Positions 22,390 to 40,176 of a DNA stretch of 64,000 nucleotides are shown piece by piece. The notes under the pieces are model-generated. The model was not told the DNA's origin and did not search any database. It saw only the letters and a list, made by a program, of their open reading frames with translations. Every line of letters begins with the position of its first letter. Position 1 is the stretch's first letter. The position numbers and the translations under genes were made by a program. The stretch comes from Rhodothermaeota bacterium MED-G19 (GTDB lineage Bacteria > Bacteroidota > Bacteroidia > Cytophagales > MED-G16): contig NTKI01000001.1 of assembly GCA_002457315.1 (NCBI GenBank), positions 1 through 64,000 on the forward strand, in the 5' to 3' direction.

Positions 22390-23613
22390 TTAAATATTAG
22401 AAAGTGACTTTGATGATGAGAGAAATCTTATTGCAATAATTAATCCAAAAAATGATAGTATAGCACCTAACATGAAAGGTGCTCCAGGAAAGTAGTAAAA
22501 TGAATTTTCACTAGTAAAATAAGAAAATAAATTAGTCATTAATAGTGGACCTATAATTGCTGTCAAGCTAACTAAACTTGTCATTCCACCTTGAAATTCT
22601 CCTTGTTCATCATCTGGAATTTTATTTGTCATAATACCTTGTAATGCTGGACCAGAGATTCCTCCTAAAGAAAGAGGAATAGCGAATGCAAATACCATCC
22701 AGCTCTCTTCAGCAAAGCAGAATAATGATAGACCTATAATATAGAAAATCATTCCAAAGTAGACACTTTTTACATTACCCAGTATTGGTATGATTACTCT
22801 TATAAGGCCCCCTTGAACAATAGCTGCTAAAAGTCCGATAAAACCAAGGGAATACCCTACGATCTCCTCGCCCCAATTAAACTTCTCTATAGTGAAGAAA
22901 GTCCATGTGCTATGCGTTGCATGTTGAGCTATATTAAATAATACAATGCAAATTAATAATCCTGAGATCACTGGATATCTTTTCAAAGACATAAGAGTTC
23001 CCACGGGATTAGCTCTTTTGATATCAAATTTTCTTCTATTTTTTTTATCTAACGATTCTGGTAAGATAAAATATCCATAAATTAGATTAATAAGAGTAAA
23101 TGCCGCCGCCGCTATAAACGGAATTCTAGATCCAAACTGCCCTAGGTAACCACCGATAACAGGACCTAAAATAAACCCCAAACCAAATGCTGCGCCAATT
23201 AAACCAAAATTTTGTGCTTTTTTTTCAGGAGTACTTATGTCTGCAATATATGCTGAGGCTGTAGTTAGACTTGCTCCCATTATCCCCTGAAAAATTCTTC
23301 CTAAAAAAAGCCATAAAATATTTGGTGCTAGAGCTAGGACGATGTAATTGATTCCAAATCCAAAAAGAGAGAGGAGAATAATTGGCCTTCTTCCGTATTG
23401 GTCACTTAATCCACCCAGAAAAGGTGCAAACAGAAATTGAAGAGTAGCGTAAGAAAACATAAGCCAACCACTATACTTTGCCGCTTCACTAATTGACCCA
23501 TTAATCAGCTCTGTTATAAGGGCGGGTATAACAGGTATAATAATCCCTAATCCTGTTATATCAATAAAAATTGTGATAAAAATGAACAGTAAACTATGAT
23601 CTTTTTTTTTCAT
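22390..23613 (-). CDS. MFS transporter, TCR/Tet drug:proton antiporter type
   Basis: A 407-residue, 12-span major facilitator protein. The N-terminal [15 protein letters not shown] block, motif [17 protein letters not shown] after span 2, [23 protein letters not shown] and the motif C-like [12 protein letters not shown] all match the TetA-like family of drug-proton exporters. Spans are spread evenly over the length with a central loop near [13 protein letters not shown]. Members next to no resistance genes are common in environmental bacteria, and the real substrate is unknown. It diverges from the TRAP binding-protein gene. Confidence 0.88.
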
Positions 23614-23692
23614 TTGTGACTCGGCAATTTAGTGTTAAATTTTATCAAAAAAATATTTTTCTTAATTTACCTTTAATTAACTATTTACTTAA

Positions 23693-24808
23693 ATGAGAAA
23701 AAAAACTAATAGAAGAAAATTTATAGAAAAATCATTGGCATCTATTGCAGGTGTTTCGGCTGTATCTTCATGTGTGAATGCTCCAGAAGATAAAGTAAAA
23801 GAATCTATAAATATAAATTTTAATAAAAATTATAAATGGAAAATGGTGACCACATGGTCTCCAAATATGCCGGTTCTAGGAGAAGGGTGTAATATGTTTT
23901 CCGAGTGGGTTAGAAAGATGTCAGGGGGAAGGCTTGAAATAAAAGTGTATGGTGGAGGTGAGTTAATTCCTAGTCTTGAGTCGTTTGATGCTGTCAGTAA
24001 TGGTGCTATAGAGATGGGGAGTGGGGCTTCTTACTACTGGGCAGGAAAAATTCCGTCAGGTCAATTTTTCTCTTCAGTGCCATTTGGAATGAATTCAAAA
24101 CAGATGAATTCGTGGATAATTTCAGGAGGAGGTTATAAGCTTTATAGAGAAATATATGAACCATTTAATCTTATTCCATTCGTTGGAGGGAATACTAGTA
24201 TGCAGATGGGTGGGTGGTTTAATAAAGAAATTAATTCATTTGATGACCTTAAAGGTTTAAAGATGAGAATTCCTGGTTTTGGAGGCAAGGTATTATCTAA
24301 AGCAGGAGGTACGGCTGTTACAGTTGCTGGTGGAGAAATTTATACTAATCTTGAGCGAGGAGTTATTGATGCTACAGAGTGGATTGGACCCTATCATGAT
24401 TATTTGATGGGATTTTATCAAGTAGCAAAATATTATTATTATCCGGGTTGGCATGAGCCAGGCGGGGTCTTGGAAATGATAGTTAATAAAGATAAATTTT
24501 CAGAGCTACCTTCTGACCTTCAAGAGATTATAAAAAAAGGCATCGAGTCTTTAAATATTTGGATGCAATGTGAGTTTGATTCAAAGAATAGTGAGTATCT
24601 AAATAAATTACTAGAAGAGGAAGGGGTCCAACTTAAAAAATTTCCTAAAGATGTTCTTGATGCATTTAAATTAAAAACCCATGAAGTAATAGAAGAGATG
24701 GTAGAGTCTGATCCCAAGAGCAAAAAAATTTTTGATGCATATGAAAAATTTAGAGTTTCATTTAAAGACTGGTCAACAGTAAGTGATAAAATTTATTATG
24801 AGTTGTAG
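23693..24808 (+). CDS. TRAP transporter substrate-binding protein, DctP/TakP type
   Basis: Extracytoplasmic solute receptor of a tripartite (TRAP) transporter, 371 residues. The N terminus carries a twin-arginine-like motif (NRRKFIEKSL) and a possible lipobox (SSC, Cys27), so it is probably exported folded and anchored. The mature part shows the DctP fold signatures FSEWVRKMSGGRLEIKVYGGGEL, LKGLKMRIPGFGGKV (the conserved Arg that binds the carboxylate) and GVIDATEWIGPYHD. The last two resemble TakP-type receptors for 2-oxo acids, so an organic acid ligand is likely. It converges on its permease genes and overlaps dctM by 13 bp. Confidence 0.92.
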   Translation: MRKKTNRRKFIEKSLASIAGVSAVSSCVNAPEDKVKESININFNKNYKWKMVTTWSPNMPVLGEGCNMFSEWVRKMSGGRLEIKVYGGGELIPSLESFDAVSNGAIEMGSGASYYWAGKIPSGQFFSSVPFGMNSKQMNSWIISGGGYKLYREIYEPFNLIPFVGGNTSMQMGGWFNKEINSFDDLKGLKMRIPGFGGKVLSKAGGTAVTVAGGEIYTNLERGVIDATEWIGPYHDYLMGFYQVAKYYYYPGWHEPGGVLEMIVNKDKFSELPSDLQEIIKKGIESLNIWMQCEFDSKNSEYLNKLLEEEGVQLKKFPKDVLDAFKLKTHEVIEEMVESDPKSKKIFDAYEKFRVSFKDWSTVSDKIYYEL

Positions 24809-26121
24809 TTTTCTAAAAAGTCTGGTATTATATAGATGTATTCTGGGTTAAAGAATAGAAATACTAAAAAAAGGACTTGAATTATAACAAAAGGCACTAC
24901 TCCTTTATAGATATCTGTAGTCTTGATTTCTTTTGGAGAAACACTTTTAAGATAGAAAAGAGAAAACCCAAAAGGTGGTGTTAAGAATGAAGTCTGGAGA
25001 TTTATTGCGAGCATGATACCTACCCATATAAGGTCAATATTTAATGCTATTAAAATAGGTGCAATAACAGGAACTACAATAAAAATTATCTCAATGAAGT
25101 CTATAAAAAAACCAGTAATAAAAACTGTAATTAGAACGTAGATTAAAAAAACCTCTGGACTTAAGTTGGATGATGTTATTAAGTCAACTAGAATTTTATC
25201 TCCTTCAAGACCTCTGAATACTAAAGAGAATGAGGTAGCTCCTAATAGTATCATGAAGACTATAGAAGTTAACTTAGTTGTTTCTGCTGAGATGTCTTTT
25301 AATTTTTTAAGGTTGATACTTCCCTGAATATAACTTAAGGTTAAAGCTCCTAATGCTCCGATTCCAGCCGCTTCTGTTGGTGATGCAATTCCCATAAAGA
25401 TTGACCCTAAGACAGCAAAAATTAAAATGAATGGAAGAAAGAATGCGTTTATTATGTCTAACGTATTCTTCTTTCTCCTAAACTCTTCCAGAACCTCTTT
25501 TGGCATAGCTGGTGCCATCGATGGATTTATAACTGAAAGAATTGCAACATAGATTAGATAAAGAAATACTAGAGTCATCCCAGGTAAAAGTGCAGAAGTA
25601 AATAAGTTTCCAACAGAGATATTAAGAACACTCCCAAGTAACACTAGTACTACAGAAGGTGGAATTATCTGACCAAGAGTTCCTGAGGATGCTATTACTC
25701 CTGTTGCAAGCTTTGGGTCATAACCTCTTCTTAACATAGTTGGTAGGCTAATAAGTCCCATTGTTACAACTGTTGCTCCTACTATTCCAGTTGATGCAGC
25801 AAGCATACCACCTACTATAATAACTGAATAGGCTAGCCCACCTTTTATTTTACCAAAAAGAATAGCCATAGTTTCAAGTAATTTTTCAGCTATTCCAGAT
25901 TTTTCAAGTGTGAGGCCCATGAATATAAATAAAGGAACAGCTAGTAGAACAAAATTGTTCATTATACCATAAATTCTTAATGATACAAGATAGAAGAAGT
26001 CTGCATCAAAAAATATTAGTCCAGCAAGAACAGAAATACCTCCAAGAGTGAGCGCTACTGGATACCCAAAAAGTATCATGATGAATACTATCAAGAATAA
26101 GATTATAGGTATGCTATCCAT
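24796..26121 (-). CDS. TRAP transporter large permease subunit (DctM)
   Basis: The ion-coupled transport subunit of the TRAP system: 441 residues, about 12 membrane spans. Visible family blocks are VPLFIFMGLTLEKSGIAEKLLE, GGLAYSVIIVGGMLAASTGIVGA, SSGTLGQIIPPSVVLVLLG, GIASPTEAAGIGA and LQTSFLTPPFGFSLFYLKSV. It overlaps the small subunit gene by 8 bp, so both come from one transcript. Together with the receptor gene on the opposite strand it makes a full TRAP set. Confidence 0.94.
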   Translation of the reverse strand: MDSIPIILFLIVFIMILFGYPVALTLGGISVLAGLIFFDADFFYLVSLRIYGIMNNFVLLAVPLFIFMGLTLEKSGIAEKLLETMAILFGKIKGGLAYSVIIVGGMLAASTGIVGATVVTMGLISLPTMLRRGYDPKLATGVIASSGTLGQIIPPSVVLVLLGSVLNISVGNLFTSALLPGMTLVFLYLIYVAILSVINPSMAPAMPKEVLEEFRRKKNTLDIINAFFLPFILIFAVLGSIFMGIASPTEAAGIGALGALTLSYIQGSINLKKLKDISAETTKLTSIVFMILLGATSFSLVFRGLEGDKILVDLITSSNLSPEVFLIYVLITVFITGFFIDFIEIIFIVVPVIAPILIALNIDLIWVGIMLAINLQTSFLTPPFGFSLFYLKSVSPKEIKTTDIYKGVVPFVIIQVLFLVFLFFNPEYIYIIPDFLENYNS

Positions 26122-26596
26122 CTGATAATTTTTTTAAATTTTTGAATATGTTTAATAACCCTTGTGTAACTAGTAATAGAAATGATATTGGTATTATAGA
26201 TTTTATTATAAATCTAAAAGGTAATCCTCCTGGGTCTGGACTTGACTCCAATATATTATAGGAATCTTCTACAAAAGGGATGGAAGTATAAAATATGATT
26301 ATACAAAAGGGTAATAAAAAAATCAGGTTTCCTATAAGGTTAATTATTTCCTTACCTCTATCTGAAAATTTATTATAAAACACGTCAACTCTTACGTGTT
26401 CATCTCTTTGTAGTGTTAGGGAAGATCCTATTAGAAAAATCATAGCAAACATGTGCCATTCTAATTCATATAATGACGCGCTTGAAAAATTAAAAACATA
26501 CCTCAGGAACACATCAAGTGAAATTAAAATCACCAACATAAATGAGAGCCAAGAGCAAGTGTCACCAATTTTTTTAATTATTTTCTCTAGGAGCAT
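26114..26596 (-). CDS. TRAP transporter small permease subunit (DctQ)
   Basis: A 160-residue protein with four membrane segments, typical of DctQ, which supports the large permease. Recognisable blocks are LVILISLDVFLRYVFNFSSASLYELEW and LTLQRDEHVRVDVFY (the conserved xREHVRVD block). It is the first gene of the QM pair and is transcribed towards the receptor gene. Confidence 0.9.
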   Translation of the reverse strand: MLLEKIIKKIGDTCSWLSFMLVILISLDVFLRYVFNFSSASLYELEWHMFAMIFLIGSSLTLQRDEHVRVDVFYNKFSDRGKEIINLIGNLIFLLPFCIIIFYTSIPFVEDSYNILESSPDPGGLPFRFIIKSIIPISFLLLVTQGLLNIFKNLKKLSDG

Positions 26597-26665: not shown

Positions 26666-27697
26666 TTGAAAAGAGATATAAGAGAATTATCTATTGAGGA
26701 TATCGGAAAATTTTGTGAAGAGCATAGTATGAGACGATATGTATCGAATCAAGTTTATTCCTGGATTTGGAATAATGCGTGCTCTTCCTTTAGTGATATG
26801 TCTAATCTATCAAAGAAGAACAGAGAAATATTTTGTGAACATTTTTCAATAAATAAAATAACTGAAGATTACCATGAAAAAAGTAATGATGGAACTATTA
26901 AAATAAAGTTTAAACTTTTTGATGGAAACTTTGTCGAGGGTGTCTTGATCCCCCAAGATAAGAGAATGACTGCATGTATATCCTCTCAGGTAGGATGTTC
27001 ACTTAGCTGTAAATTTTGTGCTACCGGGACAATAGGTCGAATAAGGAATTTAACTGCTGGAGAGATTTATGATCAGGTAGTAGCTATTTCTGATAAATCA
27101 AAAGAAGTATATGATTTGCCATTAACAAATATTGTTTTCATGGGTATGGGTGAGCCTCTTCTAAACTACAAAAATGTCATAAGGTCTATACACTTCATTA
27201 CATCAGAAGAGGGTCTTCAAATGTCATACAAGAGAGTTACATTATCTACTTCTGGAATAGCTAAGATGATAAGAAGACTTGCAGATGATAAAGTGAAAGT
27301 TAATCTGGCATTATCTCTCCATGCTGCTTCAGAGGAGATAAGAAATGAGATCATGCCCATAGGGGATTCAAACTCATTAGATGACCTTAGAGATTCACTT
27401 AAATATTACTTCTCAAAAACAAAAAATAAAATCACTTACGAGTATGTCTTGCTTAAAGATGTTAACGACAGCATAAGTGAGGCTGAGAAACTATATAAGT
27501 TTACTAAGCACATCCCTTCAAAGGTTAATCTTATTGAGTATAACCCTGTTGAAGGTCTGGGCTTTAAGAAATCATCTCAAGAAAACACTGATGCTTTTGT
27601 TAATTTTTTAGATAATAAGGGGATAAATGTAGGTATCAGAAGGAGTAGAGGAAAAGATATTAATGCGGCTTGCGGACAATTAGCTAATAAAAAATAA
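26666..27697 (+). CDS. rlmN: 23S rRNA (adenine(2503)-C(2))-methyltransferase
   Basis: Radical-SAM enzyme that methylates A2503 of 23S rRNA (and A37 of some tRNAs). The 343 residues contain the cluster motif CSLSCKFC (Cys111, Cys115, Cys118), MGMGEPLLNY, the LSTSG and NLALSLHAA blocks, and the C-terminal INAACGQLA with the catalytic cysteine near residue 336. The start is TTG (26666), giving the usual N terminus (IRELSIEDIGKFCEE). It is a single gene after the divergent TRAP genes. Confidence 0.95.
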   Translation: MKRDIRELSIEDIGKFCEEHSMRRYVSNQVYSWIWNNACSSFSDMSNLSKKNREIFCEHFSINKITEDYHEKSNDGTIKIKFKLFDGNFVEGVLIPQDKRMTACISSQVGCSLSCKFCATGTIGRIRNLTAGEIYDQVVAISDKSKEVYDLPLTNIVFMGMGEPLLNYKNVIRSIHFITSEEGLQMSYKRVTLSTSGIAKMIRRLADDKVKVNLALSLHAASEEIRNEIMPIGDSNSLDDLRDSLKYYFSKTKNKITYEYVLLKDVNDSISEAEKLYKFTKHIPSKVNLIEYNPVEGLGFKKSSQENTDAFVNFLDNKGINVGIRRSRGKDINAACGQLANKK

Positions 27698-27760
27698 AAT
27701 TTTCAAATTCCTGACACGTTATTAAAGTGCAATTTTATGCTTTTGCCTGCACTAAATCTT

Positions 27761-27768
27761 TATATTTG
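27761..27768 (+). promoter_or_regulatory. -7 box for the giant surface protein gene
   Basis: TATATTTG matches TAnnTTTG exactly; a TTTTG at 27741-27745 upstream is closer than the usual 19 nt spacing. The expected start near 27774 lies after the ATG at 27737 and before the one at 27788, supporting 27788 as the real start. Confidence 0.5.
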
Positions 27769-27787
27769 TAGATTGTATTTATACGAG

Positions 27788-30700
27788 ATGAAAAAATATT
27801 TATCATTTTTTATTCTGTGTTTTTTTCTAAACTTGGCTAATGTATTAGCACAATCAGAACCTATTGCCCACCTAAGTGTTGATCAGTTATCTATAGAGGA
27901 GAATGGTGGCGTCTCAAAACTTACAATTTCTCTTAAAGATGCCTCAGGAAATAGTATGAATGCGTCTTCAAATATAGATGTCGCTATTACCATATCCGGG
28001 TCTGCAACTCTTGGATCAGACTACAGTATCACAAATCTCACAAATGCAGATAATAAGATAATTACAATAAGCAGTGGCTCCTCATCTGCTTTCTTAACAT
28101 TTACTTCGATCAATGATACCGATGTAGAGAGTGAAGAAAAAATAAAAGCTGAAATTGCTAGCGTAAGCTCTGGATCAATTCATTCTGTAAATAATGACAG
28201 GACAGTAAGCATATTAGATGATGATCTTTTAATATCTATGAAATTGCATGCTGGAGACACATTTCTTCTGGAAGAAGGATCTCCAAAAAGTGTTGTAAGA
28301 GTTGAAATAAACCAACCTGTTGCCCAAGATATAGAAGTTCAAGTGGGAATGACAGGTGGAGATGCTATTAATGCAGATGTTAATTTTACGGGAATTGTTC
28401 AGATAAATGATGGAGATACTTTTAATGATTTTGAGATATATGCTGTCGATGATAGTGAGTATGAGGACACAGAATCTTTTTATATAAAATTAACTAATGT
28501 TAAGTCAGGACCAGGAAGAATAGTGAATGACTCTATTGCGTTCTCTGTTATAGATAATGATCCGCCTAAGGTCTCTTTCTCACTAGATAAAGACTCAATT
28601 GATGAGGATGGTGGCGTTGCTAAACTTACCATAACTCTTAGTAGAGTCTTTAATAAGGACTCTAAGATAGTTTTAAATTATGAAGGATTAGACCCTTCTG
28701 TTAACACTAGCCTTGTTGCTGAAAAAGGAGTTGATTTTAATGCAAACCACACAACTGGTTCTGTTGATGAAGAAATAATAATTTTAGCTGGAAGTACAAC
28801 TGCCGAAGTCATATTAAGTGCAATAGATGATAATATTCAAGATCCTAATGAGAGGATAGTTATTACTTTAAATAACACTTTTTCTGATACCCCGCCATCA
28901 GAAAATATTTTCTATGAAATTGGTAAGAAGGCCATTATTAAAATTATTGATGACGAAAACCCTCCTGTCGCAGTAAATGATTCTTATTCTGGAGCTGACT
29001 GTGTAGATGAGGGAGGTGAATTAATAATTAGTGATGTAGCTAAGGGCTTGTTAGCAAATGACTCTGATAAAGAGGGGCCAATTGTTAGTATTGTGCAGCA
29101 GTCATTTCCACTAAATGGATTTGTCTCTTGTCCAACTACTGGTTTGCCAGGCATATGTGATGACGGAACTTTTAGCTATAAACACAATGGAAATGAGACA
29201 CCTACTGGTAGTGACAGTTTCTCTTACAAGATAACTGATGATGATGGGTTTTTCGCAACAGGTCAGGTGTCAATTTGTGTTAACCCAGTAAATGATTGTC
29301 CAGTCGTAGACGGTGAAGCTCTTAAAGTAAACGAAGGACAAGTTTACACAAGAGACCTTACAGCTGGGGTCTTAGATCCTGAGTACACTTTGGGGATTGA
29401 TTTAGTTCTTAACTTTGAACTTATCACACCACCATCTGTCGGATCAATAACTGTATCCACTGCAGGAGTTGTCGAATATACCGCTCCACCTTTTGTAACT
29501 GGATCTGATCCTTTAAATACTAGTTTTAAATATAAAGTAACTGACGGAGGGGGCTGTGTTATTGAGGATGTGATTATGATTCAGATTAATAATTCTGTCC
29601 CTTTAGCAGTACCAGACACATTTGTAGTTGGTGTTGGTGGGACAATAAATATAATTGCACCCGGGATACTTTCTAATGACCCTGTACCATCAGGAGCTAC
29701 AGCTCAGTCAGGATTAGTAACGACTCCTAATCTTGCAATTACTAGTGGAGTTAACGCATTTAACTTAAATATGGATGGTAGCTTCACATATACTCATAAT
29801 GGTAGCTCATCTCCAAAAACTGATGAATTTGAATACAGATTAACAATTATCTATAGTCCAGGAGTTTTTGATGTCTCCGATGGTAAGGTGGTTATTAAAG
29901 TTAACGACTGTCCTACTACTGTCACAGATACTTATGTTGTTGATGAGGGAGGTATCTTAGTAGTAGACTCAATTAATGGTCTCTTAATGAATGACAGTGA
30001 TATTAATGGTGATGTGATATATGCATATAAGGACTCAGACCCTAAGGTCCTGGAAGACCATAGTGACAGTAAAAAAAGTATCGTTACAGTTAATGATAAT
30101 GGTTCTTTCACATACACTCATGGTGGAGGTGAAGGATCGCTAGACTATTTCTTGTACTATGCGAATGACGGAGTCTGCGACAGTCCTCCAGACACAGTTA
30201 AAATTATTGTAAATCCTGTAAATGATTGTCCTGTTACACTAATGAATGGGTATAATAGTTTGAGTTTATTAGATGGAGCCCCAATCAAAGATTACATCGA
30301 GGCACTATCTGATAAAGACGGGAACCCAATCTCTATTGACAGTGTAAATGTAGATTCAGGAGGAGACACATTAACAGTATATGCTTCAGATGGTACAACC
30401 TGGATATTAGATATGGATGAGGGTGGAACAATTACTAGAGATTCTGCAGGAGGAGGACTTACAGGGGATTTTGACCTTGACGGGGATTTTATTTTTATGA
30501 GGGAGTTACTACCTGGGTCGCCTAACTGGCTTCTAGATGTGGACGGGAAACCAATTTATCCCTTCCCACCTCAGGCAAAAGATTATACAGTTAACGCTGA
30601 CGGTTCATTTACCTATGAACATAATGGCACAGGAGCTATTAGAGATGTGATATATGTTGAGGTCTGTGATGTGCCCCAGGTGGGTGTATCTTGTTGCTCT

Positions 30701-33700
30701 GTAGACTCCATAACATTATTTTTTGGCCCTGATAATGCCTGTGCGGAGGGACTAACTGATTATTTTACAGTAAATGAGGGTGGAACCTTGATAGCAGACG
30801 CTGCAAACATGGGTTATAATGACTACATGTTAAATAAGGGTAAGAAAGCAAAATATACGGGAGTACTCTTTAATGATGTTGACGAAGAGGGAGATACTCT
30901 AAACGTAGCACTTGTAGACCGACCATTATTTGGAACCATTGTAGGAGATACAATTAACCCTGACGGATCCTTTATCTACGTGCACGATGGTGGGGAACAA
31001 ACAGCAGACATGTTCACTTATATAATGGGAGATATGGAAAGGCAATGTTCTACTGTGAAAGTTTATATAAACATAGTATCTGTAAATGAGTGTCCTACCG
31101 CTAATGATACGATATATACGGTTGCCGAGGGAGGCACGCTAACGATCTCAGGTTTACCTGGTGGTGGTGTTGGCACCTTCAGAAATTTTCCTGCAATAAT
31201 GGGTAATGATTTTGATTTGGATATAGGCTCCAGGCCCCAGATAACGGATAGTTTAATTGCATTCTACTCCATGTCTGAATTTTATGATTCACTTCCTGGT
31301 CCAGATTTAGTTCTTGATCTTGACACAGTATCTACAATTCTTGTGCGTAAGAAGGCTGATGATCAGAGTAGTAATAACTTTGATGGTTTTATGATGGGCG
31401 GAGTTCCTGATACAGTAACTCTTCCTAACCCAACGAATTGTGAGAGTTTGACTGGTGGTAAATGTGGTTCACAACCATATTTTATAAACTATCCTAAGTC
31501 ACCAAAAGTAGTTCCCGACAGATTCCAGCCGCCACATGACAGAAATGCTTTTGAGTTTGATGGTGATTCCTCTTATGTTGAGGTAATAGATCAAATTCTA
31601 GCATTAAATAGGTCTAGATATACTATTTCAGGGTGGTTCAGATCATTTAATAATCCAACCGATTCCCCGACACTATTAAACTTTACTGTTGGTGGTAAGG
31701 AAAAAGGGTTAAGTATTGGAATTAAGGATGAACAGTTATCTCTAGGAATTGGTAATGGCACAGGTTACACAGTAAGGGCATTAGGGCCCGTTGGAAGCAC
31801 TAAATTGACAGGAGTATGGAACCATTTTATATTTATGAAAAATGGAGATAATTATAAGATGTATTTAAATAAGAATGAAATATATTCTGAAGACCTAATC
31901 AATACATCCTTATCAGGAGTCTCTTCGCAATTACTCATTGGTAGGGACATCACAGGAAATTTATTTCATGGAAGAATGGATGAACTATATATTGTAGGAG
32001 ACACAGTTTCTCAGGATCAGATATTAAGTCTTTACTATGGTGTGTCCACTACTCTTACTAACAAGCCAGATGATGGAGAGTTAACTAGCTTTGGTTCGGA
32101 TGGTTCATTTACTTATGTCCATGATGGAAGAGGTAATGATTTTGAAGATAACTTTATATATGAACTTTCAGACGGGGAGTGTACTGATCTTGGTAAAGTA
32201 ACAATAGTTATTACACCTGTGAACGACTGTCCGATTGGTGTAAACGATACACTTACAGTTGATGAGGGAGGTACTGTGACACTAGATGCCCCAGGAGTTT
32301 TAATTAATGATACTGATGAGGAAAATGACACATTGACTGCTGAAAAAATTGTTGACCCTCTTCATGGAATTGCTACACTGGGTTCTGATGGGAAGATAGA
32401 ATATATTCATGACGACTCTGAGACTCTGATCGACTCACTAAAATATGTTGTCAAAGATGGCTCCGCAACTTGTGCTGATACCACTACTGTGTATATAATA
32501 ATTAACCCAGTTCCTGACTGTCCAATTCCTGCAGATGACGTCTACTATGTCACCGAGGGAGATACATTAACAGTGGATACTTGTGTAACCAAAAAATTAA
32601 ATATTGGATCAAATAATGAAAATTGGGCTACTGGTGAACCTAATAGCTCAGGAGATGAGAATATTGGAGAAATATATTCTAACGGAACATGGAATGATGA
32701 ACAGGAAAACTCTAGAAATCAAAAATATCTCTTCGAAGTTGATAAGTTAATTACCTCAAAATCAGGTTTTGTTTACCTAGGGCAGTATGACGGTCACTCT
32801 TACTTTAGCTCAAATCTTTCCTTCTTGTGGTATGACGCAAAAGCACATGCTGAAGCTAACGGTGGTTACTTGGCAATGATAAAAACTGTAGAAGAAAATA
32901 ATGCAGTAGCTGCTATAACCTCTGAAAGATATCACTTTGGACTCTATCAAGACGCCTCAGACAAATATTTTAAAGAGCCAAAAGGTGGTTGGAAATGGGT
33001 GGACGGAACTTACCTATATGACGAAGGTGAAGAGAGAACTCTTTGTGGAGTACTAATTAATGATAATGATGGAGGTGGAGACACACTATACGTTACAGAT
33101 TATAAATTAGGTCTAATGGATAATGGGGTCTTAATAAATGATGAAATAAAATTTGATGGAAAATTTACTTATATCCATGACGGAAGTCAGTTAGGAGATA
33201 CTATTGAATACCGAATAGAGAGTGAACTCTGTGAAAGTGATGACTTTGCCAGAATTATCATTATGCCAATTAATGTGAATGATTGTCCTGTGGCAGTTCG
33301 TGATACTTTTTATATTGAAGAGGGAGGTACGTTAGATACAGTTGGAATCTTATTGAATGATATTGACCCGGACCCAGACTCAGTAGATGCGCTAAGGGCT
33401 GAAAAAGTTTCTTCTAGTGATACTAACCACGAAGATACCCTTAAAATCTTACCTAATGGGAGATTCTATTATGTCCATGATGGATCCGAATCATCTATTG
33501 ATAGTGTGCAGTATAAGGTTATAGATCTTTCTGGTTGTGAGAGTATTGCAACGGTGGTCATAATTATTAGTAGAGTTAATGACTTGCCAGTTGGAGTAGA
33601 TGATAATTATTCTGTTTTTGAAGGAGACACACTAGTAGTTCCTTTTAATCTAGGACTTTTATCTAATGACTCTGATCCAGATCATGCCCTTGATCAGTTA

Positions 33701-35698
33701 AGAGTTTTAGGCTTAACAAGCGTACCTGGATTAACATTAAATTCTGATGGTTCATTTACCTATATCCATGATGGCTCTGATTCGCCTAATGAAATTTGTT
33801 TTAAATATATGATTTTTGATGGTGTAAATGGTCCGCCTCCTGGTCTCTCTGGTGAGACTGAAGTCTGCATCACAATTCTTAACAGAGTACCAATTTGTGA
33901 TGGAGAAATTTATAATCTTTTAGAGGGCGAAGTTCTTACAACTGACCTTACCGATGGAGTACTAGTAAATTGTAAAGATCCAGATCCTCAAGATATTATG
34001 ACAGTAATTTTAGACACTCCACCTGAACATGGAGCCTTTGTTTTAAATGATGACGGAACATTCTCCTATGACCATGACTGTTCTGATGATCCTGATGAAA
34101 CATTCTTTACTTATTTTGTTACTGATGGAGAGGATACCACTCAAGTCGCAGATACTGCATGGATAAATATTCAAAATGAATGTCCAGTCGGTAACGATGA
34201 TCTATATAGTGGAGTAGATGAGGGAGGAGTTTTAAATATTGGACCTTTCAATGGCGTCTTATCAAATGATTCAGATCAAAATGCATGTGACATTTTGGAA
34301 ATTAAGTTATTAGACCCTCCATCATTTGGTGGTGTTGTATTGAATGCTGACGGTTCGTTTGACTATACTCATGATGATAGTGAGAATTTTGTAGATCAGT
34401 ACACTTATCTTCTTAATGACGGTGAGTGTAGTACTTGGGATACAGTGACTGTGACTATTAGGATAGACCCTGTTCCTGATACTCCTCCTGTTGCTGTGAA
34501 AGATTCTTTTGACTGTATAGATGAAGGTGATTTTCTTCAGATTCTTCTACCTGAAGACGGAGTGCTATCAAATGATTTTGATTATGACACTGGACAAACT
34601 TTAAGTGCTGTACTAGTGAGGTATCCGCTTCATGGAGTTTTAATTTTAAATCCTAATGGAACATTTATATATTCTCATGATGGCGGAGAGTCTACAACTG
34701 ACTCATTCAGCTATTTTGCGGTAGATGACACAGGACTAGAAAGTGACACGGTAACTGTCTCGTTATGTATAAATCCTGTCAATGACTGTCCAGTTCCAGC
34801 CGATGATATATTTAATATCAAAGAGGGAGATGTTATAGACTCTTCTCTGGTATTTAATGACTTTGATGTTGAAGGAAATGATCTTCTTATAAGTATAAAT
34901 TCAACTCCAACTCTAGGTGGATTCTCCTGGTCTCAAGATGGTAAATTCATCTACACTGCACCAGATGATATTCCAGCCCCTGGTCCACAGATAGTTACTT
35001 TTGATTATATACTAACAGATGTAGATGATGGTTTTGCTACTTGTGATTCTACGGCAACAGTTACTATAATTATAAATTATGAAAATGATTGTCCAATTGT
35101 TGAAGATGACTCAATTATTGTAGATGGAAGTGTTGCAAGTTCTAGAGTTATTCCTGTCCTTGATAATGACTCAGACCCTGATTCTGAGATTGACACCACT
35201 AGTGTGAAGATAATTGCAGGACCAACATTTGGAGATGCTATATCAAATATAGATGGAACTATAACTTATAATTTTGATGAGTCTCCAATTCCTTTTGATA
35301 CTATCACTTATAGTGTCAGTGATTATGAAGGGTGTGAGGTCCTTGGTAAAGTATATATTTATATTGAAAATATAAGAAACCCTAGGTATAACCTTCCAAA
35401 TTATTTTACACCTAATGGAGATGATTTTAATGACTTTTTTGTAATCAAATATGTAAATATCTTAGAGGAAAATTTAAGTTTCGAAGTTAAGATTATGGAC
35501 AGATATCAGAGAGTTGTATATGATGGTTTAGTTCAGGGAAGTGACAAGATATGGAACGGAATAAATTCCTTCACTTCAGAAATTGTTAAGACAGATTTCT
35601 ATTATTATGAAATCACACCAGTTGAGTATTATAATACTCCATATATGAGAAGAAGAGATAAGATGATAGGTACTGTCTATTTAGAGAAGGAAAGATAG
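27788..35698 (+). CDS. Giant T9SS-exported surface protein with Calx-beta, cadherin-like, LamG and permuted C-type lectin domains
   Basis: A 2636-residue secreted protein, probably an adhesin or surface layer component. Order: signal peptide (1-22, cut after VLAQ); three Calx-beta domains (about 24-390; e.g. HLSVDQLSIEENGGVSKLTI); about fourteen cadherin-like repeats of roughly 95 residues (each: DEGG, GVLxNDxD, DGSFTYxHDG, NDCP); a C-terminal type B sorting domain (about 2532-2636; LPNYFTPNGDDFNDFF to the end). A LamG-like domain (about 1150-1417) and a C-type lectin-like domain (about 1599-1750) are inserted inside repeats. Most repeats have a Cys after DG and one in NDCP about 18 residues later, a likely disulfide. 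Acidic Asp-rich loops suggest Ca2+ binding. I reject the ATG at 27737, which would put residues before a normal signal peptide. Confidence 0.92.
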   Translation: MKKYLSFFILCFFLNLANVLAQSEPIAHLSVDQLSIEENGGVSKLTISLKDASGNSMNASSNIDVAITISGSATLGSDYSITNLTNADNKIITISSGSSSAFLTFTSINDTDVESEEKIKAEIASVSSGSIHSVNNDRTVSILDDDLLISMKLHAGDTFLLEEGSPKSVVRVEINQPVAQDIEVQVGMTGGDAINADVNFTGIVQINDGDTFNDFEIYAVDDSEYEDTESFYIKLTNVKSGPGRIVNDSIAFSVIDNDPPKVSFSLDKDSIDEDGGVAKLTITLSRVFNKDSKIVLNYEGLDPSVNTSLVAEKGVDFNANHTTGSVDEEIIILAGSTTAEVILSAIDDNIQDPNERIVITLNNTFSDTPPSENIFYEIGKKAIIKIIDDENPPVAVNDSYSGADCVDEGGELIISDVAKGLLANDSDKEGPIVSIVQQSFPLNGFVSCPTTGLPGICDDGTFSYKHNGNETPTGSDSFSYKITDDDGFFATGQVSICVNPVNDCPVVDGEALKVNEGQVYTRDLTAGVLDPEYTLGIDLVLNFELITPPSVGSITVSTAGVVEYTAPPFVTGSDPLNTSFKYKVTDGGGCVIEDVIMIQINNSVPLAVPDTFVVGVGGTINIIAPGILSNDPVPSGATAQSGLVTTPNLAITSGVNAFNLNMDGSFTYTHNGSSSPKTDEFEYRLTIIYSPGVFDVSDGKVVIKVNDCPTTVTDTYVVDEGGILVVDSINGLLMNDSDINGDVIYAYKDSDPKVLEDHSDSKKSIVTVNDNGSFTYTHGGGEGSLDYFLYYANDGVCDSPPDTVKIIVNPVNDCPVTLMNGYNSLSLLDGAPIKDYIEALSDKDGNPISIDSVNVDSGGDTLTVYASDGTTWILDMDEGGTITRDSAGGGLTGDFDLDGDFIFMRELLPGSPNWLLDVDGKPIYPFPPQAKDYTVNADGSFTYEHNGTGAIRDVIYVEVCDVPQVGVSCCSVDSITLFFGPDNACAEGLTDYFTVNEGGTLIADAANMGYNDYMLNKGKKAKYTGVLFNDVDEEGDTLNVALVDRPLFGTIVGDTINPDGSFIYVHDGGEQTADMFTYIMGDMERQCSTVKVYINIVSVNECPTANDTIYTVAEGGTLTISGLPGGGVGTFRNFPAIMGNDFDLDIGSRPQITDSLIAFYSMSEFYDSLPGPDLVLDLDTVSTILVRKKADDQSSNNFDGFMMGGVPDTVTLPNPTNCESLTGGKCGSQPYFINYPKSPKVVPDRFQPPHDRNAFEFDGDSSYVEVIDQILALNRSRYTISGWFRSFNNPTDSPTLLNFTVGGKEKGLSIGIKDEQLSLGIGNGTGYTVRALGPVGSTKLTGVWNHFIFMKNGDNYKMYLNKNEIYSEDLINTSLSGVSSQLLIGRDITGNLFHGRMDELYIVGDTVSQDQILSLYYGVSTTLTNKPDDGELTSFGSDGSFTYVHDGRGNDFEDNFIYELSDGECTDLGKVTIVITPVNDCPIGVNDTLTVDEGGTVTLDAPGVLINDTDEENDTLTAEKIVDPLHGIATLGSDGKIEYIHDDSETLIDSLKYVVKDGSATCADTTTVYIIINPVPDCPIPADDVYYVTEGDTLTVDTCVTKKLNIGSNNENWATGEPNSSGDENIGEIYSNGTWNDEQENSRNQKYLFEVDKLITSKSGFVYLGQYDGHSYFSSNLSFLWYDAKAHAEANGGYLAMIKTVEENNAVAAITSERYHFGLYQDASDKYFKEPKGGWKWVDGTYLYDEGEERTLCGVLINDNDGGGDTLYVTDYKLGLMDNGVLINDEIKFDGKFTYIHDGSQLGDTIEYRIESELCESDDFARIIIMPINVNDCPVAVRDTFYIEEGGTLDTVGILLNDIDPDPDSVDALRAEKVSSSDTNHEDTLKILPNGRFYYVHDGSESSIDSVQYKVIDLSGCESIATVVIIISRVNDLPVGVDDNYSVFEGDTLVVPFNLGLLSNDSDPDHALDQLRVLGLTSVPGLTLNSDGSFTYIHDGSDSPNEICFKYMIFDGVNGPPPGLSGETEVCITILNRVPICDGEIYNLLEGEVLTTDLTDGVLVNCKDPDPQDIMTVILDTPPEHGAFVLNDDGTFSYDHDCSDDPDETFFTYFVTDGEDTTQVADTAWINIQNECPVGNDDLYSGVDEGGVLNIGPFNGVLSNDSDQNACDILEIKLLDPPSFGGVVLNADGSFDYTHDDSENFVDQYTYLLNDGECSTWDTVTVTIRIDPVPDTPPVAVKDSFDCIDEGDFLQILLPEDGVLSNDFDYDTGQTLSAVLVRYPLHGVLILNPNGTFIYSHDGGESTTDSFSYFAVDDTGLESDTVTVSLCINPVNDCPVPADDIFNIKEGDVIDSSLVFNDFDVEGNDLLISINSTPTLGGFSWSQDGKFIYTAPDDIPAPGPQIVTFDYILTDVDDGFATCDSTATVTIIINYENDCPIVEDDSIIVDGSVASSRVIPVLDNDSDPDSEIDTTSVKIIAGPTFGDAISNIDGTITYNFDESPIPFDTITYSVSDYEGCEVLGKVYIYIENIRNPRYNLPNYFTPNGDDFNDFFVIKYVNILEENLSFEVKIMDRYQRVVYDGLVQGSDKIWNGINSFTSEIVKTDFYYYEITPVEYYNTPYMRRRDKMIGTVYLEKER
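31230..32040 (+). other. LamG-like domain nested inside a cadherin-like repeat
   Basis: Within the giant gene the repeat starting TIYTVAEGGTLTI is interrupted after DFDLDIGSRPQ and resumes at DDGELTSFGSDGSFTYVHDG. The insert carries the laminin-G/concanavalin pattern: LIAFYSMSEFYD, AFEFDGDSSYVEV, RYTISGWFRSF, GVWNHFIFMKNGDNYKMYLN, LLIGRDITGNLFHGRMDELYI. Such domains usually bind carbohydrate or protein. Confidence 0.75.
32584..33045 (+). other. Circularly permuted C-type lectin-like domain nested in a cadherin-like repeat
   Basis: Inside the giant gene a repeat is split between EGDTLTVDTCV and GVLINDNDGGGDTLYV. The insert holds C-type lectin motifs in reversed order: first the C-terminal half (ENWATGEPNSSGDEN, YSNGTWNDEQ, KYLFEVD, about 32611-32742), then the N-terminal half (GFVYLGQYDGHSYF, WYDAKAHAEANGGYLAMI, GGWKWVDGTYLYD, about 32765-33021). 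In ordinary family members GGWxWxDG is followed directly by NWxxGEPN. EPN and WND motifs needed for Ca2+/sugar binding are present. Confidence 0.7.
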
Positions 35699-35700
35699 AT

Positions 35701-36786
35701 TTATTTTGAGAAGTTATATATAGCAAATGTAGCTAGCCAGTGCTCTCCTCCGTAACCACTTTCAAACATTATATTGTAGCCTTTTTCAGAATGATTTTTA
35801 GCAATATCTAGTAACAGTTTTTTTTCTGAATTACTTTTAACTTTACTTGCTATATCTTTTAGTGTCCAAGACCTATGAAACATAAGTCCTATCAAATGAC
35901 CAATGCCCGGATCTTCTGGATCTAAAACAATGGGTGGATTGATAATATTAGCAAAGTGTTTTTTATCAAGTGAGGGAATAAATTTTTTAAACCAATTATT
36001 AAATTCACTTTCATTTAGTATAGAGGACATCAGACTTGCTTCTGCAAGACATGGAGAAAGAAAATCTGTGCCTGATGGCTCGTAGCTTACTGGGCAGTTT
36101 GTGTCTAACATGAAGTTTTTAATGCTGTAATTTTTTATTTTATTTAATAATTTATAGTCTTCTGCTATTATAGCATACTCTACCATTAGTGAAAAAGAGA
36201 ATGCGGTATTTGCATGTGTTCCAGGTCTTAATGGGGTAGATAGTCTATCTAAAAACAACATTGTCCTTTCGCTAAGCAAATCCACAAGAGGTTTCATGTT
36301 AGATGCCCACTCACGTCCTTTTTCATTTTCCCAAGTCAGTAGTTCAGAATATAATTTCATAAGCCAAGCCCAACCATATGTCCTCTCAAAACCTTTGGCA
36401 AAATCGTTTTGAAAAAACTCATATTCTTTACTTAAATTCTCTTTACTTAGGTTCTTACCTAACTTTTCTAATATTATTTCTCTTTCTGAAATCTCTGGAA
36501 AATCTTTAATGATTTTAACCATAGCCCAGTGACCATGAACTGCTGAGTGCCAGTCCCAACAACCATAAAATGATGGGGTGACTTCATAGTGTGGTCTGAT
36601 CCACTCTTCTTCAATAAACCTATAACCAATTTTATAAGGGTATTTTTGATCTACACATTTTATTGATAGTGATACTAATTCTTTTGCTGTGTTTTCATCC
36701 AATGATACATTTTGAATATTTTTTTTCTTATCTATATTAGTACAAGAAGAAAAAATTAAAATAATTATATAGATATATTTTCTCAT
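35701..36786 (-). CDS. DUF2891 family lipoprotein
   Basis: A 361-residue lipoprotein (lipobox SSC, Cys15). The sequence YKIGYRFIEEEWIRPHYEVTPSFYGCWDWHSAVHGHWAMV is the hallmark of DUF2891, a family of helical proteins of unknown function; later blocks (GTHANTAFSF, CLAEASLMS, HRSWTLKDIA, SGYGGEHWLATFA) also fit. The many conserved His/Trp/Glu residues and all-helical character suggest an (alpha/alpha) toroid enzyme fold, which is inference. Its stop lies 2 bp from the stop of the giant gene, and its ATG overlaps the rhomboid stop (ATGA). Confidence 0.85.
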   Translation of the reverse strand: MRKYIYIIILIFSSCTNIDKKKNIQNVSLDENTAKELVSLSIKCVDQKYPYKIGYRFIEEEWIRPHYEVTPSFYGCWDWHSAVHGHWAMVKIIKDFPEISEREIILEKLGKNLSKENLSKEYEFFQNDFAKGFERTYGWAWLMKLYSELLTWENEKGREWASNMKPLVDLLSERTMLFLDRLSTPLRPGTHANTAFSFSLMVEYAIIAEDYKLLNKIKNYSIKNFMLDTNCPVSYEPSGTDFLSPCLAEASLMSSILNESEFNNWFKKFIPSLDKKHFANIINPPIVLDPEDPGIGHLIGLMFHRSWTLKDIASKVKSNSEKKLLLDIAKNHSEKGYNIMFESGYGGEHWLATFAIYNFSK

Positions 36787-37652
36787 TTTTTGCTGGCATT
36801 AAAAAGTTTTTCTTTCTCTTTTTTTGAAAGACTTGCATATCCACTCTCAGATATTTTATCTAGTATTTTATCAATTTCATCTTGGGAAATATCTTTTTTC
36901 ATTTCCTTTGTATCTTCTTCTTTTTTATCATAGCCTCCTCTTTTGTTTTTGCTAAAAAGGTTGATGATATCAATTATTCCTTGTCCCATATTAACCCCAT
37001 TTTGAAGTTGTCTAATATAAAGATAACCAATCAATGCCCCACCCAAATGTGCAATCTCTCCCCCAGCATTACTTCCAGTAACATCAAAAAAAGATAACAA
37101 TATATAAAAAAGGGCAATATATTTTATCCTCACAGGACCTAAAAATAACAGGTAAAAAGTATAGTTTGGTAATAGAGTAGCAGACCCAACAACCACACTG
37201 AATACTCCAGCTGATGCTCCTAGCATGAGTGACTCAGAAATACGATTATCATAGAAAGGAATAATATTAAATAAAGCCATATATGATAGCCCACCAATAA
37301 TTCCACCAATTATATACAAAGAGATTACAGCATTATTACCAATGTTATTATGAATTATTTTGCCAAACCAGTAAAGGAATAGCATATTCCAAAGGATATG
37401 CATAAAGTTCATATGGAGAAAAAAATAAGTTATAAGAGACCAAGGCTGAAAAATAAAAACTTTGAGTGAGGCGGGTAGCATTAACTTATTTAAGAATGAA
37501 TTAAAAAATTCACTTAATCCTGATAAAGTTACAAACACCTCTAGGATACTCATTGAGACAAATACAATAATATTTATTAAGATGATCTTTATCAGGCCAT
37601 TATTTTCCTTGTTCCAAGCATTTCTAAAGTCTTCAATTATAAAGTTTGCCAT
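36783..37652 (-). CDS. Rhomboid intramembrane serine protease with C-terminal DUF6576-like tail
   Basis: A 289-residue rhomboid with six membrane spans. Catalytic serine is in LGASAGVFS, catalytic histidine in AHLGGALIGY, and the HMNFMHILWNMLFLYWFG loop carries the conserved His and Asn (the WNMLFL block). A cytoplasmic tail (DEIDKILDKISESGYASLSKKEKEKLF) resembles a short conserved module seen at the end of Bacteroidota rhomboids. It is 2 bp downstream of the second rhomboid gene. Substrates are unknown; two adjacent rhomboids beside mutL is a recurrent arrangement in Flavobacteriia, as I remember it. Confidence 0.9.
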   Translation of the reverse strand: MANFIIEDFRNAWNKENNGLIKIILINIIVFVSMSILEVFVTLSGLSEFFNSFLNKLMLPASLKVFIFQPWSLITYFFLHMNFMHILWNMLFLYWFGKIIHNNIGNNAVISLYIIGGIIGGLSYMALFNIIPFYDNRISESLMLGASAGVFSVVVGSATLLPNYTFYLLFLGPVRIKYIALFYILLSFFDVTGSNAGGEIAHLGGALIGYLYIRQLQNGVNMGQGIIDIINLFSKNKRGGYDKKEEDTKEMKKDISQDEIDKILDKISESGYASLSKKEKEKLFNASKK

Positions 37653-37654
37653 TA

Positions 37655-38434
37655 TCAGTAGTAGGTTCCATACTTATTTTTCCAGTATCTTAATATAATA
37701 TAAGCTATTAGCATACCACCTAAATGAGCTAGGTGAGCAACATTGTCTCCGGGCATTCTATTAAATTCACTCCATATCTCATATAACCCATACACCAGAA
37801 CGAGATACTTTGCCTTAACAGGAATAGGAGGTATTAGAAGCATTAGTTGCATGTTGGGAAAAAGCATAGCGAAAGCAAGTAATATTCCAAATACTGCACC
37901 TGATGCACCTACCATTGGAACATCATTGTTGCTTTTTAGTATGGTATTTGTAATATCTATACTTTCTTTGATGAAAGCTTCACTGCCTGGATTTTCAGAA
38001 TAACTACTAATGAAATCATATAATTGATTATAATATTCTTTTGAATTATCTAATACAAATTTTCTGAAAGCATCTGGATTAGGATTATTTTGATAGTTTT
38101 TAACATCTGTCTCAAGAGAATAATTTTCATAAAAATTTACGCCGGAGTATAATATTCCGGCTCCTATACCTGTTATAAGGTAGAAAGTAAAAAATTTTTT
38201 AGACCCCCAAACTTTCTCAAGGATAGGAGCAAAGACTATTACCGCAAACATGTTACTGAAAAGATGACCAAATCCTGCGTGAATCCACATATAAGTTAAA
38301 AATTGGTAGGGCTTAAAAGTATCTGATAATATGTATCTTAGACCAAATTCTTCAATTATATAACCTCCTGTAAAGAGGAAAATTATCCCATTTATTATAA
38401 GTATATTTTTTGCTGCTGGAGTTAGATTGAACAT
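37655..38434 (-). CDS. Rhomboid intramembrane serine protease with long extramembrane insert
   Basis: A 259-residue rhomboid. Catalytic residues are in VGASGAVFG (Ser) and AHLGGML (His), and the first loop holds MWIHAGFGHLFSNMFA with the conserved His/Asn. Between the third span and the catalytic serine there is an unusually long polar insert of about 75 residues (NFYENYSLETD... to SNNDVP). It shares 1 bp with mutL upstream and is followed 2 bp later by the second rhomboid. Confidence 0.9.
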   Translation of the reverse strand: MFNLTPAAKNILIINGIIFLFTGGYIIEEFGLRYILSDTFKPYQFLTYMWIHAGFGHLFSNMFAVIVFAPILEKVWGSKKFFTFYLITGIGAGILYSGVNFYENYSLETDVKNYQNNPNPDAFRKFVLDNSKEYYNQLYDFISSYSENPGSEAFIKESIDITNTILKSNNDVPMVGASGAVFGILLAFAMLFPNMQLMLLIPPIPVKAKYLVLVYGLYEIWSEFNRMPGDNVAHLAHLGGMLIAYIILRYWKNKYGTYY

Positions 38435-40176
38435 CAGAATAAATTTTCTACTTTATCAATACCTAATTCTATATAATTTTGTTTCCCATCAGGAGAATAC
38501 TTTGGATTTTTACAAGCAAATAATCTATCAATTATGAGATTCATTTCAGTATGAGATAAGTTTTTACTGTTTGTGATCCTTGCTTTTTTTGAAAAAGATT
38601 TTAGTATGAGTTCTTTTTTTTGAGATTTTAAATCCAAATTATTATTTTTTACTTCTTCAACAAATCCTTCTATAATTTCTTTCTCATTTATATCATCTAG
38701 ACCACTAGGTATTCCATTAATTACAATAGAATTTTTTCCAAAAATATCAATACTAAACCCTATTGAACTAATGTCTTCTAAAATCTCTTCAATGATTTTA
38801 AAATCAGATGAATTAAATTCTATATACTGAGGAAATAAACTTTGTTGAGTATTTGAATAATTATTTAAGCTACTTTTTTGATACTTTTCAAAAAGAATTC
38901 TTTGCTGGCAGTTTTTATGATTAAATATTAATAGTTTTTCACCTAGTTGTTTGAATATAAAGTTTTCTAGGAATTGAACAGGTGCATTTTCGTTTTCAAA
39001 AGTATCTTTCTTTTCAAAAAGTAATCTGTCTGAATTTTCAATTTTAACATTTTCAAAGATTTTATCCCAATCTTTTCTTTTCTCTGAGTAAACTGTTTTC
39101 TTGCTTGAAGGTGATGCTATTTCTGATTCTAAAAAATTAATGTTTTTTGTAAAATTAACATCAGCATCAAAATTAAGACTTGGAGATACATTAAACTTTT
39201 CTAAAGATTTTTTAACTGAAGATTTAATAAGACTGTATATTAATTTTTCATCTTCAAATTTTATTTCTGTTTTTGTTGGATGTATATTAATATCTACTAA
39301 ATCAGTATTTATTGATATAAAAAGAACATAAAAAGGAAATTTTTTATCTTCAATAAGTCCCTCATAACTATTGATTATAGCATGATTTAGATATCCACTT
39401 TTTATAAATCTATTATTTACATAAATGTACTGCTCACCTCTTGTCTTCTTCGAATTTTCTGGCTTACCTATGAACCCTTCTATTGTTATTCCACCATACT
39501 TCTCTTCACAGGATATTAGATTATTTTCATAGCTTTTTTTAAAAATTGAAACTAGTCTCTTCTTAAGGTTTGTTCCCTTTAGATTATATACCTCAGCCTC
39601 TTCATTTACTAGAATAAAATTTAAATTATAATTTGCAATAGCAGACCTTATAAATTCTTCTATTATATGTCTAAGTTCAACATTGTTAGATTTTAAAAAA
39701 TTTCTTCTAGCAGGGACACTATAAAATAAATTTTTACATGTTATACTAGTCCCTTTTTGAAAGTTTATATCTTTTTTTTCAGTTATAATAGAATCTTTTA
39801 AAATAACTTGATGGCCAGTTTTATTGTTACTGATTCTAGTTTTTAATATTACTTCTGTTACTGCCGCTATAGAAGCAAGAGCTTCACCTCTAAAGCCCAT
39901 TGTCTTAACTTTATAAAGATCTTCTGTTTTTGACAATTTAGATGTTGCATGTCTATTAAAACAATTAATAGAATCTTCTTTTGACATTCCCTCGCCATCG
40001 TCAATTACAGATATTGATTGCTTACCAGCATCCTTTATGACTATCTTAATATTTTTAGCTTTTGCGTCAATACTATTCTCAATTAATTCTTTAATTATAG
40101 ATGATGGTCTCTGGATTACTTCACCAGCTGCAATTTGATTTGCTACAGATTTTGGTAGTTGATTTATTATATTCAT
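38434..40176 (-). CDS. mutL: DNA mismatch repair protein MutL, endonuclease motif not conserved
   Basis: Couples mismatch recognition by MutS to strand removal. The 580 residues have a normal GHKL ATPase N terminus (ELIENSIDA, VIDDGEGM, TMGFRGEALASI, INIHPTKTEIKF) and a MutL C-terminal dimerisation domain (about residue 400 onward). The segment aligning to the metal-binding DQHAAHERILFE motif reads NHKNCQQRILFE (38887-38922), and the second site, CPHGRP in endonuclease MutLs, reads SPDGKQ. It may therefore not nick DNA itself. It leads a leftward operon with the rhomboids. Confidence 0.94.
   Translation of the reverse strand: MNIINQLPKSVANQIAAGEVIQRPSSIIKELIENSIDAKAKNIKIVIKDAGKQSISVIDDGEGMSKEDSINCFNRHATSKLSKTEDLYKVKTMGFRGEALASIAAVTEVILKTRISNNKTGHQVILKDSIITEKKDINFQKGTSITCKNLFYSVPARRNFLKSNNVELRHIIEEFIRSAIANYNLNFILVNEEAEVYNLKGTNLKKRLVSIFKKSYENNLISCEEKYGGITIEGFIGKPENSKKTRGEQYIYVNNRFIKSGYLNHAIINSYEGLIEDKKFPFYVLFISINTDLVDINIHPTKTEIKFEDEKLIYSLIKSSVKKSLEKFNVSPSLNFDADVNFTKNINFLESEIASPSSKKTVYSEKRKDWDKIFENVKIENSDRLLFEKKDTFENENAPVQFLENFIFKQLGEKLLIFNHKNCQQRILFEKYQKSSLNNYSNTQQSLFPQYIEFNSSDFKIIEEILEDISSIGFSIDIFGKNSIVINGIPSGLDDINEKEIIEGFVEEVKNNNLDLKSQKKELILKSFSKKARITNSKNLSHTEMNLIIDRLFACKNPKYSPDGKQNYIELGIDKVENLF

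Follow-up and report, generated by a model that had tools for sequence, protein, structure and literature searches.

A C-type lectin-like domain with swapped halves, probably a circular permutation, inserted in a giant surface protein of a marine Bacteroidota bacterium

Can a C-type lectin-like domain (CTLD) sit inside another repeat with its two halves in exchanged order and still form one domain? This question is raised by a giant protein of 2653 residues encoded in the assembly of Rhodothermaeota bacterium MED-G19 (1.3 Mb, 87% complete), of which one stretch of 64,000 nucleotides (hereafter the window) was analysed. A sequence-only reading of this DNA had proposed that lectin motifs that normally end the fold here precede those that normally begin it, as the result of a circular permutation with new termini in the loop before NWxxGEPN. 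All the motifs it quoted lie in frame and in the swapped order within the one ORF, and along the insert they run NWxxGEPN...WND...LFEV followed by YLGxYxGHSYF...GGWxWVDG. The residue range it gave (about 1560-1800) holds as an approximation only, the insert itself spanning residues 1616-1770. Coordinates of all features are presented in Table 1.

Table 1 Positions, residues and supporting evidence for the lectin insert, its host repeat and the surrounding giant protein.
Feature	Position	Strand	Residues	Basis
Giant surface protein ORF	27737..35698	+		Pfam Cadherin_4 x16, Big_9, Calx-beta, Laminin_G_3, CHU_C
Host cadherin-like repeat, first part (DCPIPADDVYYVTEGDTLTVDT)	32516..32581	+	1594-1615	matches Cadherin_4 when joined to second part
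Inserted CTLD, putatively circularly permuted	32582..33046	+	1616-1770 (C1616 to C1770)	profile and rotation matches, AlphaFold
Cys1616, first boundary cysteine	32582..32584	+	1616	present together with Cys1770 in 10/10 orthologous copies
Half normally ending the fold (NWATGEPN...GTWNDEQ...KYLFEVDKLI)	32621..32752	+	1629-1672	half-profile 56 bits; DC-SIGN 91-121
EPN motif, Ca2+ site II, mannose-type	32636..32644	+	1634-1636	sequence and DC-SIGN alignment
Glu1641, counterpart of the Glu seven residues past the EPN Glu	32657..32659	+	1641	DC-SIGN alignment
WND motif, Ca2+ site II	32690..32698	+	1652-1654	sequence and DC-SIGN alignment
Half normally beginning the fold (TSKSGFVYLGQYDGHSYF...GGWKWVDG)	32753..33007	+	1673-1757	half-profile 119 bits; DC-SIGN 14-86; Lectin_C 5-63
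Cys1770, second boundary cysteine	33044..33046	+	1770	kept in 10/10; none in adjacent uninterrupted repeats
Host cadherin-like repeat, second part (GVLINDND...)	33047..33280	+	1771-1848	Cadherin_4 when joined
CHU_C type IX secretion signal domain	35390..35620	+		Pfam E 6e-9

Sequence comparison placed both segments in the same kind of domain. In a phmmer search against the PDB, residues 69-145 of the insert matched DC-SIGN 14-86 and residues 12-43 matched DC-SIGN 91-121, both reversed-order alignments lying inside one lectin domain (E 1.8e-9). Searching with a separate profile for each half, as the earlier reading had suggested, likewise detected both, in swapped order (scores in Table 1). The Pfam model Lectin_C covered positions 5-63 of 107 on the insert in its native order and positions 5-101, as a single stretch, after rotation; the rotated insert reached 28.8 bits (cut-off 22.6), which identifies it as a CTLD by sequence profile. 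All 155 rotations were also scored against a 137-column profile for which 33 normal-order CTLDs of bacterial genomes served as input. Unrotated, the insert scored 71.2 bits over columns 4-87, and the top rotation, with the chain opened between KLI and TSKSGFVYLG, scored 107.9 bits over columns 4-133. This best opening point is the natural junction, at which the C-terminal strand LFEV has been joined to the N-terminal strand YLGQY. The insert departs from the ordinary strand order (beta1-alpha1-alpha2-beta2-long loop-beta3-beta4-beta5) in that its halves are swapped, and for that reason we class it as a permuted variant of the CTLD fold and not as an ordinary member. The reversed DC-SIGN alignments, half profiles and rotation scan, together with the AlphaFold model below, support the proposed circular permutation and the new termini in the loop before NWxxGEPN. 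We therefore consider it very probable that the insert is one circularly permuted CTLD inserted in a cadherin-like repeat.

The host repeat is whole once the insert is taken out, as without residues 1616-1770 it matched Cadherin_4 (PF17803) over positions 2-71 of 71 (E 7e-12). This restored match agrees with the suggestions that the repeat is interrupted between TLTVDT and GVLINDND and that the insertion lies between two of its strands. A search among relatives for an empty host site found none, the insert being present in all orthologues.

AlphaFold was run on the insert alone with an alignment of 40 rows. Some of these rows were single halves of normal-order CTLDs, and to that extent the model does not test the permutation hypothesis independently. 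It consists of one domain (pLDDT 80.5, pTM 0.76) whose elements follow the order expected for a permuted CTLD: strands at 28-33, 39-43, 51-55, 65-71 and 74-79, helices at 85-94 and 105-114, then strands at 119-125 and 139-141, with a short strand at either end (3-7 and 153-157). The top 13 structural neighbours found with VIA were all C-type lectin chains (Z 4.6-6.9), including Mincle (2.2 A over 81 residues, at a moderate Z of 6.9) and DC-SIGN (Z 5.9). These alignments mainly cover model residues 57-153, the first-half part only, as expected when a permuted domain is submitted to an aligner bound to sequence order. Foldseek gave no significant match for the domain model in the PDB and a viral library, an outcome that is expected of a permuted query but is uninformative. 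Host and insert modelled together from a thin alignment of 7 rows gave a poor model (pLDDT 47), with which Foldseek returned nothing usable. The structure prediction called for by the sequence-only reading thus yielded a single domain with C-type lectins as its best matches, aligned over the first-half part by an order-bound aligner, and is in keeping with a model in which the insert would fold as a single CTLD-like domain.

Like ordinary CTLDs (PF00059; DC-SIGN, SP-A, mannose-binding protein, Mincle), the insert carries the motifs of both halves, including EPN, Glu and WND, and is predicted to have the core strands and helices of the fold; its best structural neighbours are of this kind. Unlike them, it has swapped halves and termini in the long loop, not at beta1/beta5. 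Two conserved intrachain disulphides are regular in animal CTLDs. The insert lacks both, has no cysteine in its interior and retains only the pair at its new ends, C1616/C1770, which would form a disulphide stapling the neck of the insert; its tether is expected beside the sugar site.

We further investigated the occurrence of the swapped order in other genomes. Nine further genomes or MAG contigs share the swapped order at this site. They comprise two genera of the taxonomic family to which the window genome belongs (identity 48-77%) and named MAG contigs; among relatives with names, the closest are MAGs labelled Flammeovirgaceae and Marinoscillum. Homologues in normal order would have pointed to misassembly, as the earlier reading had noted, and those found hold the swapped one. 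A survey with one profile per half, in which the order of halves was mapped at every locus, found no exception to the permuted order among this family's CTLDs for which both halves were detected, about 30 distinct copies in many host domains. Half pairs detected in further families of that order and class were all normal (L066-L071, L083-L111). The window genome, at 87% completeness, holds one permuted copy only, and in all three genera of the family other proteins carry further copies, located in or beside Calx-beta, Ig-like, thrombospondin-type-3-like and IgGFc-binding-like regions (Ig-like and thrombospondin-like hosts were assigned by eye). The insert is therefore a member of a conserved family of circularly permuted, inserted CTLDs in marine Bacteroidota, and this membership across many hosts goes beyond what could be seen from the window. 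Within the window's family, the Pfam lectin model matched little beyond the first half; permutation explains such half-only lectin domains from Pfam-type searches in these genomes. At three loci (L020, L025, L040), a permuted CTLD splits a thrombospondin-type-3-like repeat, with EAGF(D/T)D before the insert and DPDGILGNSPVTV after it.

Permuted copies also occurred alongside normal ones in small-genome relatives of two Flavobacteriaceae MAGs (L033, L034), where their hosts include DUF7507-like repeats, other repeats and a sialate acetylesterase-like protein, in which the permuted domain lies close to the start. As a viral control, 120 contigs were picked solely by DNA for NWxxGEPNN and hence blind to order; these gave 116 normal CTLDs, one permuted and a few partial, so that 116/117 with both halves were normal. 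The single exception is a divergent permuted CTLD in a large tail-like viral protein (L229:5798-6310). Protein-based scans of viral contigs found no relative, and phage records gave just a 31% partial match, to a Flavobacterium phage lectin, and none with a Flavobacteriaceae-type permuted copy.

CTLDs in normal order from other Bacteroidota (L069, L071, L083, L084, L086, L091, L107) are likewise nested in a beta-sandwich loop of a large secreted protein, with Ig-like or HYR-like hosts assigned by eye. Unlike the window insert, they are unpermuted and inserted via their natural ends. In two viral CTLDs (L140:6097-7140 and L141:886-1929) the chain is broken at the same loop as in the permuted family, between WRW and NW; in contrast to the swapped halves of that family, they keep the normal order and hold a LamG-like guest in the loop, which indicates that this loop tolerates other guests.

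The sequence-only reading knew of no described lectin domain of this kind. That held in the literature that could be searched, which leaves out most subscription journals: searching for C-type lectins with a permuted or circularly permuted fold brought up nothing relevant. The 'segment swapping' noted for the collagen NC1 domain (PMC3779223) is a different matter. A precedent for a permuted Ca2+-dependent sugar-binding domain, in a fold unrelated to the CTLD, is provided by CBM36 and CBM60, Ca2+-dependent carbohydrate-binding modules related by circular permutation (Montanier et al. 2010, cited in PMC4444583).

The two ends of an ordinary CTLD meet at its base through beta1 and beta5, and its long loop, which contains Ca2+ site II with the residues EPN, WND and Glu, faces outward (PMC7618208). 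In the insert, the second half is followed by the first through the short linker KLITSKSG, which leads from the natural C-terminal strand on to its N-terminal counterpart; since these strands are adjacent in the ordinary fold, the bridge costs little. WxWxDG and NWxxGEPN flank the long loop in which the chain is opened, and the host is attached there. With the old ends fused and the new ends in the long loop, the lectin should be tethered through its binding loop, giving a 'loop-in' lectin whose sugar site would adjoin the host repeat, where that of ordinary CTLDs faces outward. EPN begins 18 residues past the first boundary cysteine.

The window copy has a complete Ca2+ site II set, located entirely within the first-placed half. 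EPN, Glu1641 and WND align with DC-SIGN, as expected of a mannose-type lectin; the DC-SIGN counterpart of Glu1641 is presumably E354. From these residues, Ca2+-dependent sugar binding by the window copy appears rather likely, with a mannose-, glucose- or fucose-type sugar as the best guess for its ligand. For the permuted family as a whole, sugar binding is a weaker guess: a simple pattern recognised EPN in 27/44 permuted copies, compared to 27/33 normal ones, so some copies may not bind sugar. The strongest alternative builds on this point and accepts the permuted fold as genuine, yet sees in it a structural spacer or a protein-binding module and no Ca2+-dependent lectin. Many CTLDs bind no sugar, and several permuted copies have no recognisable EPN or WND, whereas the window copy retains EPN, the extra Glu and WND; we regard this alternative as a serious possibility, though somewhat short of probable.

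The remaining alternatives concern the fold itself. The halves could be remnants of two ordinary CTLDs after a deletion, degenerate and not folding together, given that tandem arrays can yield neighbouring second and first halves. One protein does contain such an array (L129, CH-NH-CH-NH), with a Pfam stretch in normal order across its middle. However, the window and the roughly 30 family copies have exactly one of each half per insert, far from any others; both halves are kept across three genera with the Ca2+-site residues retained, reading frame, linker and flanks are conserved, and AlphaFold returned a single domain, all of which makes a pair of remnants quite improbable. The related idea of a tandem array read in the wrong phase was rejected for the window and its family, where single halves stand alone, L129 excepted. 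On sequence alone, the swapped order would also permit pairing outside the insert, each half being domain-swapped with halves of copies in neighbouring proteins. Against this, the linker has the shortness that a bridge between adjacent strands needs: counted from where the EV/EF strand motif ends, GHSY follows after a median of 18 residues, which amounts to a turn and one strand. The window genome (87% complete) has a single copy, and the single-chain AlphaFold model is confident in its core; such swapping seems hardly credible. Finally, an assembly or binning artefact, conceivable for short-contig MAGs such as the window genome and most relatives, is virtually discounted, along with chance, by the same order and flanks in independent assemblies at 65-77% identity and by the swapped order in unrelated host proteins.

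A quick tree of 79 domains, 43 of them permuted, was built with all domains set in normal order, the viral copy L229 left out and few alignment columns; in it the permuted domains require three state changes. Forcing them into one clade gave a likelihood 12.6 units above that of the free search (AU p 0.75), so a single origin is compatible with the tree, not proven by it. The permutation probably arose once in these bacteria, the module then spreading as an insertable unit, and the viral copy L229 may be separate from the other permuted CTLDs. Circular permutation classically arises by duplication and loss of the outer halves, and a tandem duplication followed by such loss is a plausible origin here as well. 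The loop that would have become the new ends comprises about six residues in normal relatives (e.g. WRWSDG-SPMVYM-NW). In L129 (G736:C8:95692-96528), a DUF7507 repeat protein shows a second-first-second-first order of halves. This could be read as a pair of permuted domains or as a normal domain with a further half on either side, and may be an intermediate, as the array is the kind of stage through which the duplication-loss route would pass.

Whether these copies constitute a distinct 'loop-in' family, derived from one ancestral permutation and used as a plug-in module in many unrelated hosts whose loop may shape or gate binding, appears to us evenly balanced. A natural family tethered via the binding loop would break the outward-loop rule of ordinary CTLDs (PMC7618208) and would demonstrate that circular permutation is both tolerated and put to use by this fold. 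With the permuted family, the influence of domain ends and insertion geometry on ligand binding can be tested in a natural setting, and the module, reused as it is across many host repeats, is well suited to studies of the spread of nested domains in giant marine bacterial adhesins.

The giant protein ends in a CHU_C domain scoring 36.3 bits in Pfam (cut-off 27), which marks it as carrying a type IX sorting domain. It would accordingly be exported by the type IX system as a surface protein, and its most probable role is that of an adhesin or of a fibre for glycan capture. A LamG-type domain (Laminin_G_3, residues 1275-1429, 31559-32023) also seems to be nested in a cadherin-like repeat, giving the protein two inserted domains of sugar-binding type. 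The likelier start of the ORF is the ATG at 27788, before the signal-peptide-like MKKYLSFFILCFFLN; the listed start adds 17 residues (27737-27787). The neighbouring genes (22390-26596, 26666-27697 and 35701-40176) are ordinary, encoding MFS and TRAP (DctP/M/Q) transporters, an RlmN-like radical SAM methyltransferase, a DUF2891 protein, two rhomboid proteases and MutL.
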